DNA of 32,012 nucleotides, from contig JAPNUP010000059.1 in assembly GCA_026627345.1 (NCBI GenBank), forward strand, positions 1 to 32,012, in the 5' to 3' direction. Position numbers and translations under genes: made by a program. This document shows positions 1-25,050 of this stretch, piece after piece (position 1 is the first letter of the stretch; each line of letters begins with the position of its first letter). This stretch comes from Bacillota bacterium. GTDB taxonomy: Bacteria; Bacillota; Bacilli; Alicyclobacillales; SLC66. The notes under the pieces were generated by a model. The model did not search any database, was not told where the DNA came from, and worked only from the letters and a program-made list of their open reading frames with translations.

Positions 1-93
1 TCCGCCACTGACACCCGAAGGTGTCCGTGCGACTTGCATGTATTAGGCACGCCGCCAGCGTTCGTCCTGAGCCAGGATCAAACTCTCGAATCA
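1..93 (-). rRNA. rrs: 16S ribosomal RNA, 5' end (partial)
   Basis: The reverse complement carries the near-universal start of bacterial 16S rRNA: AGAGTTTGATCCTGGCTCAG read from position 86 downward, followed by the conserved stretch that ends in GCCTAATACATGCAAGTCG. Aligning AGAGTTTGATC to E. coli position 8 puts the mature 5' end at about position 93. Only the first ~93 nt are inside the window and the gene runs off the left edge. An rrn operon downstream of gyrA is the same arrangement as rrnO in B. subtilis. Confidence 0.97.
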
Positions 94-9458: not shown

Positions 9459-9593
9459 ATGAAACCTACCTTTAACCCTAATGTTCGCAAACGTAAAAAA
9501 AATCACGGGTTCCGTAAACGGATGGCGACCAAGAATGGCCGTCGGGTACTAGCAGCTCGTCGACGTAGAGGAAGAAAAGTGCTATCCGCGTAA
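9459..9593 (+). CDS. rpmH: Ribosomal protein L34
   Basis: Very basic 44-residue protein of the large ribosomal subunit. It carries the family pattern [18 protein letters not shown] followed by [22 protein letters not shown]. Initiation is at ATG 9459, preceded by CAGGAGGTGTG about 8 nt upstream, an excellent ribosome binding site. The rpmH-rnpA-yidC order is among the most conserved gene orders in bacteria. It is followed by a hairpin terminator before rnpA, which would set a high L34 to RnpA ratio. Confidence 0.97.
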
Positions 9594-21559: not shown

Positions 21560-21787
21560 ATGGTAGACAAGCTTTTCGCTTTAGGCGATATCGTCACGAT
21601 GAAGAAACCACATCCATGCGGGTCCAATGAATGGGAGATTATTCGCATGGGAATGGACATTCGAATCAAGTGCGTGCAGTGTAAACGCAGTGTTCTCCTC
21701 ACTCGCCGTGATTTTGAACGATCGCTTAAAAAAGTGATACGCACTGCTCAGGATGCTCCTGCAGTGGACGCGCGCACAGATGAATAA
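21560..21787 (+). CDS. DUF951 family small protein (YyzM-like)
   Basis: A 75-residue protein. The family core is unmistakable: FALGDIVTMKKPHPCG, then WEIIRMGMDIRIKC and a short Cys-x2-Cys (C38, C41), which with C20 could bind a metal. The C-terminal tail (about 60-75) is a variable extension. B. subtilis has the homologue yyzM next to ychF. The start is ATG 21560 after GGGGG. The coding end overlaps the next gene by 8 nt. No biochemical role is established. Confidence 0.88.
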   Translation: MVDKLFALGDIVTMKKPHPCGSNEWEIIRMGMDIRIKCVQCKRSVLLTRRDFERSLKKVIRTAQDAPAVDARTDE

Positions 21788-23744
21788 GACAGTGCACACC
21801 GCATGCCCGCTCGATTGCTATGACGCCTGCACGATGATCGCGCATGTACAAGATGACGTTGTCGTGCGCGTCGAAGGCAGACCGGATCATCCCATCACCC
21901 GCGGACGACTTTGCACGCGTGGCTATCACCTTGTGAATCGAACGAATAGCCCACAGCGCGTCACAATGCCGCAAAAGCGGGTGGGAGAGACTTGGCAGAC
22001 GATTTCCTGGGAACAGGCGTATACGGAGATTGCCACAGAGATCAAACGAGCCCTTTCACGACACGGCCCCTATGCGATGATGAACAGTTATGATTATGGA
22101 TCGAGCGGCTTGATGAAGCTGGCCTGTGATCGCTTTTTTCATATGCTTGGCGGCTGTACCGAGACGGTCGGGAGTATCTGTTGGGCGGCTGGACTCGCGG
22201 CTCAGGAGTACGACTTTGGCCGTTCGGAATCACATGATCCGCAAGATATGGCCGACCACGCGCATGCGATTGTGGTGTGGGGGCGCAATCTCGCGGTGAC
22301 CAATGTACACCAGTTGCCCTTTTTGCAAGCGGCCAAACAGCGGGGAGCGAAGCTGATCGTCATCAACCCCTTGCCGACACCGCTCGACGCCATGGCAGAC
22401 GAGGTTATTTCACTCGAACCGGGGACAGACGGGCTGATGGCGCTCGCAGTCTGCAAAGAGCTGATCGCGCACGACTGGATCGATCGAGACTGGTTAGATG
22501 CTTCGGCGACAGGCTATGAAGAGTTGGTCGCTACGCTTGCAGACTACTCTGTGGCCGAAGCGGCGGCCGCTTGTGGTGTGGAGCAAAGCACGATCCGATC
22601 ATTGGCCGAGATCTATGCACATGGGCCGGTGGCGACGATCCTTGGCATTGGCTTACAGCGCCATGCGGGTGGAGGTAACACGATTCGCGCAATTGACGCC
22701 GTCGCCATGATTAGCGGCAACATCGGACGCCCCGGGTCCGGTGTCCACTATGCCAATCGACATGCGCTGCCTTATGTAGACTGGGACACGCTGCAAACGG
22801 CAGGAGATCCGCAGCCGCATCGTCAGTTCGCACGTACGACGCAGGCCCACGACATTTTGACGGCCGATCCGCCTGTTGAAGTCTTGTTTGTATCGCGAAC
22901 GAACCTCGTCGGGCAGTTGCCCGATACCGCGCAGACGATTCGTGCTTTGCAAAGTGTTCGGACGGTGGTGGTGATCGATCACTTTCACAACGCCACGTCC
23001 CAGTATGCAGACTATTTTCTGCCGGCGACCACAGTCTTTGAAGAAGAAGATGTCATGTTTACGACGATGTGGAACCCATATGTAGGCTACGCGCACCAAG
23101 CGGTTCCTGCGCGCGGGGAAAGTAGGCCGGATTGGGTGATCTTTCGGGACTTGGCGCGTGTACTTGGCTTAGGGTCAAGCTTGGAGATCGAGCCGAGAGC
23201 AGTGATTAGGCAGGCGCTCGCGCCGTGGCTCGCGCAAGATGAGGATTTCGAAGAACTGCTACGGGTAGGGTATAAGCGATTACCGCTGCCAGGCGTCGCA
23301 TATGCAAGCGGTGTATTCACCACATCGTCCGGAAAGGCAGAATTATATGCTGGCTCGGCTTTACGGGACGGGCAGCCCGCCGCTGCCTGTGCGGTGCCTA
23401 CACGGTATCCGTATCACTTACTCACGATTCACCCTAAGTGGCAAGAAAACTCGCAAGGGCAGGAGGCGCCGCGGGTACAAGAGACTGTGCAAATCGAGAT
23501 CGGCACTGAAATCGCGCGTTTCCACCACTTGCAAGACGGCGATAGGGTAACGGTGCGCACATCGACCGGGTGCCTGTCTTGCACGGTGAGTATCAACCAA
23601 AGGCTACGCGCTGATACTGTCAAAATGGAGCAAGGGTTTAGTAGAGGTTCTGACAGTGTGAACCTGCTCGTGCCGATGTTGACATCGGACCTTGGCCAAG
23701 GTAGTGCACAGTACGACACTTGGTGTAACATCGAGAAGGCTTGA
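21780..23744 (+). CDS. Molybdopterin oxidoreductase, YyaE-like
   Basis: Member of the DMSO reductase/formate dehydrogenase superfamily, 654 residues from ATG 21780. It begins with a [4Fe-4S] motif, Cys9-x3-Cys13-x3-Cys17 and Cys45 (CPLDCYDAC...GRLC). The molybdopterin domain contains VGSICWAAG (Cys134), IVVWGRNLAVTNVHQLPF, and DYFLPATTVFEEEDVMFT. The C-terminal dinucleotide-binding domain has LLTIHPKWQENSQG and RVTVRTSTGCLSCTV. There is no Tat signal, so it is probably cytoplasmic. The substrate is not evident. No partner subunit, FdhD or electron carrier lies nearby. In B. subtilis the homologue yyaE sits in the same gene neighbourhood. Confidence 0.9.
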   Translation: MNKTVHTACPLDCYDACTMIAHVQDDVVVRVEGRPDHPITRGRLCTRGYHLVNRTNSPQRVTMPQKRVGETWQTISWEQAYTEIATEIKRALSRHGPYAMMNSYDYGSSGLMKLACDRFFHMLGGCTETVGSICWAAGLAAQEYDFGRSESHDPQDMADHAHAIVVWGRNLAVTNVHQLPFLQAAKQRGAKLIVINPLPTPLDAMADEVISLEPGTDGLMALAVCKELIAHDWIDRDWLDASATGYEELVATLADYSVAEAAAACGVEQSTIRSLAEIYAHGPVATILGIGLQRHAGGGNTIRAIDAVAMISGNIGRPGSGVHYANRHALPYVDWDTLQTAGDPQPHRQFARTTQAHDILTADPPVEVLFVSRTNLVGQLPDTAQTIRALQSVRTVVVIDHFHNATSQYADYFLPATTVFEEEDVMFTTMWNPYVGYAHQAVPARGESRPDWVIFRDLARVLGLGSSLEIEPRAVIRQALAPWLAQDEDFEELLRVGYKRLPLPGVAYASGVFTTSSGKAELYAGSALRDGQPAAACAVPTRYPYHLLTIHPKWQENSQGQEAPRVQETVQIEIGTEIARFHHLQDGDRVTVRTSTGCLSCTVSINQRLRADTVKMEQGFSRGSDSVNLLVPMLTSDLGQGSAQYDTWCNIEKA

Positions 23745-23756
23745 CTCGTATCGACG

Positions 23757-23822
23757 TTAGACTGCCAAAGCCCGGCGGTTGCGGCGGATACGATCGCGCA
23801 GTCTGCGTAACGCTTTGCCCAT
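23757..23822 (-). CDS. Arg-rich 21-aa peptide, unknown
   Basis: Minus-strand ORF from ATG (23822-23820) to TAA (23759-23757), preceded by AAAAGGAGGTG, which matches the anti-Shine-Dalgarno sequence over at least ten bases at an 8-nt spacing after GGAGG. Eight of 21 residues are Arg. The sequence is MGKALRRLRDRIRRNRR followed by ALAV, an amphipathic, highly cationic helix. It could bind RNA, DNA or a membrane, or be a leader. It is convergent with the oxidoreductase (13 nt apart) and divergent from ychF. No minus-strand promoter stands out. I do not recognise a family. Confidence 0.55.
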   Translation of the reverse strand: MGKALRRLRDRIRRNRRALAV

Positions 23823-23952
23823 GGTGGGCACCTCCTTTTAAAGCTCGGAGGTAGTGTTACCCAGATCGCGTATATTATCCAAAAATATCGGGTACGCATA
23901 CTGCACATCATGGTCATTCGGACCAAATCATCTACAATATGAGGTGACATGC

Positions 23953-25050
23953 ATGTCGCTTAAAGCAGGAATCGTTGGATTGCCAAACGTAGGGAAGTCC
24001 ACGCTATTTAACGCGATCACGAAAGCGGGCGCGGAAGCGGCCAATTATCCTTTTTGTACGATTGAACCGAACGTCGGAGTCGTCGAGGTGCCAGATGAAC
24101 GCCTTCAAGGGCTCAGCGCCGTCGTATCTCCGCAAAAGACTATCCCCACGACGTTTGAATTCGTGGACATCGCAGGGCTTGTCAAAGGCGCGAGTCGGGG
24201 AGAAGGGCTCGGGAATAAATTTCTCGCCCATATTCGCGAGGTCGACGCGATCGTCCATGTTGTACGCTGCTTTGAAAACCCTGACGTCACCCATGTATCG
24301 GGTCGGGTGGACCCTGTGTCAGACATCGAGACGATCGATCTTGAGCTGATCTTCGCCGACATGGATACGGTCAATAAACGGTTGGACCGCATGCGTAAAC
24401 AGACGAAAAGCGGCGATGCCAAGGCTAAGGAAGAAGTGAGCCTGCTAGAGCGCATAGCAGAGGCGCTAGAGCAAGGGTTGCCCGTGCGGCGCTTAGGGCT
24501 CAGTCTCGAAGAGAAGCTGGCGATCCGCGATCTGCACTTGCTCACGGAAAAGCCGGTCTTGTATGCGGCTAACGTGCAAGAAAGCGAGGTTGCCGCACAG
24601 TCTACTGCGCTGGTGGACGTCGTGAGAGTCGTCGCCGCTGCAGAAAATGCCGAAGTGATTGTGATCAGCGCCCAGGTGGAAGCGGAACTCGCAGAACTCG
24701 ATCCAGAGGATCGTGTCGCGTTTTTAGAGGAGCTGCATCTGTCAGAGTCAGGACTCGATCGTTTGATCACAGCGGCTTACCGCTTGCTCGGTTTGATCAC
24801 GTACTTTACGGCCGGACCGCAAGAAGTCCGCGCCTGGACGATTCATCGCGGCACTAAGGCACCACAGGCGGCGGCCGTGATCCATACGGATTTCGAGAAA
24901 GGATTTATCCGGGCGGAGACCGTCGGCTATGAAGATTTGGTGCGCGCAGGAACGATGAATGCCGCTCGCGATGCAGGGCGACTTCGCCTGGAAGGAAAAG
25001 ATTATGTCGTGCAAGACGGTGACGTGATGCATTTTCGTTTCAATGTATGA
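23953..25050 (+). CDS. ychF: Ribosome-binding ATPase YchF
   Basis: Obg-type P-loop protein that binds ribosomes and prefers ATP. It is 365 residues from ATG 23953, which follows GAGGTG; the frame is open upstream but the homologous start is MSLKAGIVGLPN. The P-loop is GLPNVGKS (9-16). DIAGLVKGASRGEGLGNKFL is the G3 region. NVQE (in YAANVQESEV) is the altered G4 motif NxxE, known to shift nucleotide preference from GTP to ATP. The C-terminal TGS domain ends GKDYVVQDGDVMHFRFNV. Confidence 0.96.
   Translation: MSLKAGIVGLPNVGKSTLFNAITKAGAEAANYPFCTIEPNVGVVEVPDERLQGLSAVVSPQKTIPTTFEFVDIAGLVKGASRGEGLGNKFLAHIREVDAIVHVVRCFENPDVTHVSGRVDPVSDIETIDLELIFADMDTVNKRLDRMRKQTKSGDAKAKEEVSLLERIAEALEQGLPVRRLGLSLEEKLAIRDLHLLTEKPVLYAANVQESEVAAQSTALVDVVRVVAAAENAEVIVISAQVEAELAELDPEDRVAFLEELHLSESGLDRLITAAYRLLGLITYFTAGPQEVRAWTIHRGTKAPQAAAVIHTDFEKGFIRAETVGYEDLVRAGTMNAARDAGRLRLEGKDYVVQDGDVMHFRFNV

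Follow-up and report, generated by a model that had tools for sequence, protein, structure and literature searches.

Does a minus-strand reading frame of only 22 codons, wedged between two larger genes, encode a peptide, and what would a cell use such a peptide for? The question is raised by a locus in the window, by which we mean the whole 32,012-nucleotide stretch of DNA analyzed here. An earlier note had proposed a small peptide gene at this place from the letters of the window; its coordinates, strand, frame, length (21 residues and a TAA stop) and count of eight arginines are all exact. The features of the locus are collected in Table 1.

Table 1. Features at and around the small ORF, in window positions
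Feature	Position	Strand	Remarks
Small ORF	23757..23822	-	Product MGKALRRLRDRIRRNRRALAV, stop TAA; kept at ychF in 54/55 loci
Shine-Dalgarno (SD) sequence	23829-23838	-	AAAGGAGGTG; 10-nt exact match, ATG 6 nt downstream; SD-like sequence kept in relatives
Predicted forespore-type promoter	23852..23880	-	GGATAATATACGCGATCTGGGTAACACTA; -35 GGATA, -10 AACACTA; SASP-matrix score 15.7
ychF	23953..25050	+	Divergent, constant partner of the small ORF; label from the earlier note, in agreement with search matches
Convergent gene 3' of the small ORF	21753..23744	+	Molybdopterin oxidoreductase by the label of the earlier note; differs among relatives
16S rRNA gene, 5' end	1-93	-	At the window edge

The small ORF and its surroundings

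The SD sequence, which had been counted among the best of the window, in fact surpasses those of all other ORFs of 15-60 residues in the window in the length of its exact match to the anti-SD complement. The next-longest matches are GAGGTGATC, which lies at long spacing from a 37-residue GTG ORF, and AGGAGGTG, in front of a 44-residue ORF at 9459-9593 that we take to be rpmH. An in-frame GTG is located three codons upstream of the ATG. Because this GTG overlaps the SD sequence, the ATG is the likely start of the small ORF.

The genome (2.76 Mb) contains the exact string AAAGGAGGTGNNNACCATGGG a single time, and seven other places each show three mismatches to it. Rfam gave no match at the site of the small ORF. 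On the 3' side, a long opposite-strand frame of one of several kinds was found in the 21 loci checked; therefore, the small ORF seems to stand as a separate unit rather than to encode a leader peptide. Terminator candidates follow the stop at 8 of 54 loci, in a scan limited to hairpins of at most 40 nt.

Conservation and coding evidence

The window's order comprises the window's own family (f1) and another family (f2). Conservation was counted in the 55 of its 59 genomes with ychF, at one locus per genome (L025 stands for genome G010). At 54 of these 55 loci (f1, 13 of 14; f2, 41 of 41), a related ORF occupies the corresponding position and likewise points away from ychF. By the earlier note, the gene would be refuted if relatives lacked the ATG, the frame or the ribosome binding site; a start codon, the frame and an SD-like sequence are found at these 54 loci. 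The 55 chosen ORFs start with ATG (49), GTG (5) or TTG (1), a count that includes the unrelated best ORF of G016, the one exception discussed below. ychF itself was found in 14 of the 18 f1 genomes; the other four, with no match, have a completeness of 60-83%. Outside the order, no such ORF was seen at ychF in 30 genomes from other orders of the class, where the best profile score is 16, compared with at least 36 within the order. A ychF search of contigs yielded 80 loci, apparently all outside the order, and those that were read (L027-L030) carry no such ORF.

Because a plain protein search has too little to work with in so short a peptide, relatives are best located by position. The 21-residue query gave matches at E ≤ 10 in 3 of the 18 f1 genomes, namely itself and two weak ones. 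Both weak matches adjoin ychF, in G011 as judged by coordinates and in G010 as judged by reading L025. A first reading upstream of ychF in f1 found the ORF absent only at L019 (G016) and L023 (G010), and in G010 the peptide ORF turned up next to another ychF piece, at the end of a contig (L025). That genome has two ychF-like stretches (L023 and L025); of these, the one on C248 (71% identical) is preceded by different DNA and lacks the peptide gene.

Profile A2 (12 rows) recovered 13 of the order's 59 genomes at E ≤ 5.4e-6, all of them from its own family; the weaker rows (E ≥ 0.0128) look like chance, and the f2 products were discovered by position, not by this profile. Profile A3, searched against 398 genomes of the class, matched 32 at E ≤ 0.01, of which 30 belong to f2, and recovered none of the f1 members drawn into that search. 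Its matches in G186 and G404 were rejected, as neither has a short ORF with a fitting start. A profile-profile comparison of A2 with A3 gave a probability of 7%, which is not significant. The case for a common ancestry of the f1 and f2 products is built on their position and orientation, the promoter and their general make-up. In family f12, two loci (L268 and L272) carry an unrelated ORF of 49-50 residues (MANEYL.. / KPILLMAFE) at the same place, on the strand opposite to ychF and 135 nt upstream of it; it has a 9-nt SD match, and the one scanned gave no Pfam match.

The substitution pattern was evaluated over codons 2-20, in pairs that are not independent of one another. Pairs of f2 at 90% identity or more gave pS 0.075 and pN 0.009 (pN/pS 0.12, 25 pairs), and those at 80-90% identity gave pS 0.407 and pN 0.050 (pN/pS 0.12, 8 pairs). 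In f1, the ratios for the same two identity ranges were 0.11 (2 pairs) and 0.06 (2 pairs). The ratio rises to 0.36 (f2) and 0.51 (f1) in distant pairs, in which synonymous sites are saturated. At the invariant Leu5 and Leu9 of f2 all six leucine codons are used, and at Val11 all four valine codons. The comparison of synonymous with nonsynonymous changes suggested in the earlier note thus reveals mostly synonymous substitutions in close pairs.

A chance ORF is excluded because the frame is present at 54 of 55 loci in the order and at none of 30 outside it, and because substitutions are mostly synonymous. At the level of sequence, the comparisons demonstrate purifying selection on the small gene and its conservation at this site across the order. 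The small ORF is almost certainly a protein-coding gene, and the real peptide gene envisaged in the earlier note is strongly supported. A non-coding explanation, by a chance ORF in a conserved intergenic stretch or by an antisense RNA, might be suggested by the very short length of the ORF but is extremely improbable in view of a pN/pS near 0.1, the synonymous substitutions in codons for fixed Leu, Arg and Val residues, and a frame, start and SD sequence that are retained although the ORF begins anywhere between 121 and 298 nt from ychF. Products of about 20 residues, which fall below usual gene calling, can therefore be proved by gene position and codon evidence where protein search finds almost nothing.

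A predicted forespore-type promoter

A role in sporulation, which the earlier note did not consider, is pointed to by the forespore-type promoter predicted upstream of the gene. SASP genes are classical forespore genes, and the window's own genome contains five SASP matches. A promoter matrix was built from 12 promoter-like sites of SASP genes of the same family and scored over the 110 nt before the ORF start, with levels taken from dinucleotide shuffles. The 95% shuffle level is exceeded at 33 of 54 loci, compared with 3 of 54 on the opposite strand, and the 99% level at 15 of 54, compared with none; the rows are related, so that these counts are not independent. The window promoter scores 15.7 against a 99% level of 13.1, and the upstream regions of 21 other ORFs in the window score from -2.2 to 9.6.

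The common upstream pattern is GGATA-N17/18-CAnACTA or a close form of it. The plain pattern occurs at 35 of 54 loci; the opposite strand shows it at 1 of 54, and about 1% of shuffles contain it. A similar pattern was found at none of the 30 ychF loci outside the order. The remaining 21 of the 54 loci fall under the 95% matrix level. A convincing site is missing from the scored stretch at three loci of one genus (L158, L205 and L207) and at L206, and at L011 the likeliest site is about 130 nt upstream, outside that stretch. The -35 element also differs, with GGATA here and GCATA or GTATA at the SASP sites.

Passages of a study on C. difficile (PMC3789822) describe sigma-F promoters as keeping a G upstream of the -10 element, sigma-G promoters as keeping an A downstream of it, and promoters with both features as being read by both factors. 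Most of the peptide-gene sites have the G upstream of the -10 and end in A. We read the site as a putative forespore promoter and leave sigma-G and sigma-F undivided. Because the promoter resembles those of SASP genes, forespore expression of the peptide gene is probable, and a function in sporulation may follow from it. The match to SASP-type promoters would also speak for the forespore rather than the mother cell (sigma-E).

The gene has been lost at one locus of the 55, L019 in genome G016. The promoter and an SD-like AAGGAGG persist there; neither the start nor the frame survives, and the promoter is separated from the gene remains by some 200 additional bases with inverted ends (L019, about 1210-1400). 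Since G016 retains four SASP matches despite this loss, the peptide is dispensable in at least one lineage. The insert in G016, with the ends TTGTTCAAAAAGGGT ... ACCCTTTTTGAACA, resembles a small mobile element.

Conversely, genome G056 alone has a second copy (MLRRLLRRLHLRRVSGKALAAQVRDENDDQRPAACA; L250:509-619, minus strand), which has a good SD sequence and is divergent from a sigK-like gene. The first 131 codons of that gene match SigK models best; the match stays below the whole-protein cut-off because the gene is cut. The 140 nt upstream of the second copy contain no simple forespore pattern.

Possible function and comparison with known systems

The products in the order are 20-41 residues long, with a net charge of +6 to +11 (Arg + Lys minus Asp + Glu). 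They consist of a basic core of about 20 residues, predicted to be helical, and a variable tail. The consensus is MRxRLRxLRxRLRRxxxxLA in f1 and MLRRLLRRLRVRKLxTKALA in f2. AlphaFold2 was run on two longer relatives, of 35 (f1) and 39 residues (f2), the window peptide having fewer than 30. It predicted a helix at residues 2-23 of the f1 member and helices at 2-11 and 16-22 of the f2 member, with a mean pLDDT of 76-86 in the first 20 residues and a pLDDT of 52-57 in the tail. Arginine is fixed at position 7 (41 of 41) and position 12 (40 of 41) in f2, and at positions 6 and 13 (13 of 13) in f1; at neighboring positions, arginine and lysine exchange freely.

We propose that this single-gene unit, transcribed divergently from ychF, encodes a cationic micropeptide of the forespore. 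RNA polymerase with a forespore sigma factor, sigma-G and perhaps sigma-F too, would transcribe the gene within the developing spore, and the strong ribosome site would yield many peptide copies. An arginine-rich helix, formed by the core of about 20 residues, would then dock to an anionic target inside the spore core and would help to condition the spore for dormancy. The likeliest target would be nucleic acid, in the form of the chromosome, RNA or the ribosome. A docking helix is suggested by the composition and by the positions restricted to arginine, and such position-bound arginines would favor a specific partner over mere adsorption. This is the best explanation we can offer as a whole, and it is a tentative one. 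Nucleic acid as the target, given forespore expression, is a guess that falls somewhat short of an even chance; judged by composition, the basis on which the earlier note suggested both, a helical Arg-rich core may be compatible with nucleic-acid and membrane binding alike. The fixed leucine positions do not fit pure phosphate binding, and the conserved leucines would suit docking to a membrane or a protein at least as well as to nucleic acid.

It is possible, but unlikely, that the peptide acts instead at the spore membrane, as a helix lying along its anionic inner face, in analogy to SpoVM, which lies on the forespore surface from the mother-cell side. The hydrophobic residues of f1 cluster on one side: the moment of the window peptide (residues 2-14) is reached by 2.4% of shuffles, with an f1 median of 7%. 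Leucine is also exchanged for Trp, Ile and Met at fixed places, and the f2 start, MLRRLLRRLR, resembles membrane-active Leu/Arg helices. However, f2 shows no excess hydrophobic moment at 100 degrees (median 51% of shuffles), so that the moment supports an amphipathic helix in f1 and not in f2. The strict preference for arginine over lysine would also be unexpected for a simple membrane binder. We consider it similarly doubtful that the peptide is a forespore regulator binding one protein, such as a protease adaptor, a sigma factor or a ribosome factor, along the lines of MciZ or CmpA. Sporulation is rich in small regulators, and the conservation of arginine and leucine is position-specific; however, nothing points to a partner, and the peptide combines a variable tail with a core of low complexity.

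A vegetative peptide tied to ychF, as a translation or redox factor or as a cis regulator of ychF, could account for a linkage kept at 54 of 55 loci while the gene on the other side varies. This is nevertheless very improbable, as the promoter is SASP-like and not of a housekeeping type, a sigma-A-like site of its own precedes ychF at 23911-23938, and the 30 genomes of other orders have ychF and no peptide ORF.

Library searches gave no relatives. Pfam returned no family for the window peptide and four relatives, SASP (PF00269) included, and Pfam and NCBIfam together held no fitting model, with one chance-level row (E 0.054) far below the cut-off. SpoVM, whose model is presumably present in these libraries, was not matched in either at E ≤ 10. 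Among PDB sequences, A6 gave no matches and A5 one at chance level (E 0.7), and a literature search, mostly at abstract level, found no publication naming this peptide. Most of what is known about spore-core proteins comes from Bacillus and Clostridium. An order-wide peptide of 20-40 residues with a forespore-type promoter and no relatives in the family libraries searched is a lead on the protection or silencing of spore nucleic acid. A more specific picture is rather unlikely: an undescribed order-wide forespore micropeptide, different in kind from SASPs, would condition the spore core as a helix that acts like a protamine or coats ribosomes.

Several known systems can be set beside the forespore micropeptide proposed here. 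MciZ and CmpA are very small sporulation regulators, from which the peptide differs in sequence and in having no family match. SpoVM of B. subtilis (26 residues) is a sporulation micropeptide with a basic helix, as is predicted for our peptide. However, SpoVM is a mother-cell (sigma-E) product, whereas the peptide has no family match in Pfam or NCBIfam and its promoter is forespore-like. By eye, the predicted core resembles the short Arg-rich helices of lambda N and HIV Rev, which are alpha-helical arginine-rich motifs, and of ribosomal eL41; it differs in having no sequence relative in the PDB and in adding fixed leucine positions. From SASPs, the peptide is set apart by the lack of a Pfam-level sequence relation or SASP motif, by its strongly basic character and by a length of 20-41 residues compared with about 70. 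Conversely, it would share with them a small product, a forespore-type promoter that is built alike and occurs in the same genomes, and possibly the binding of nucleic acid in the spore core, for which the peptide is a candidate.
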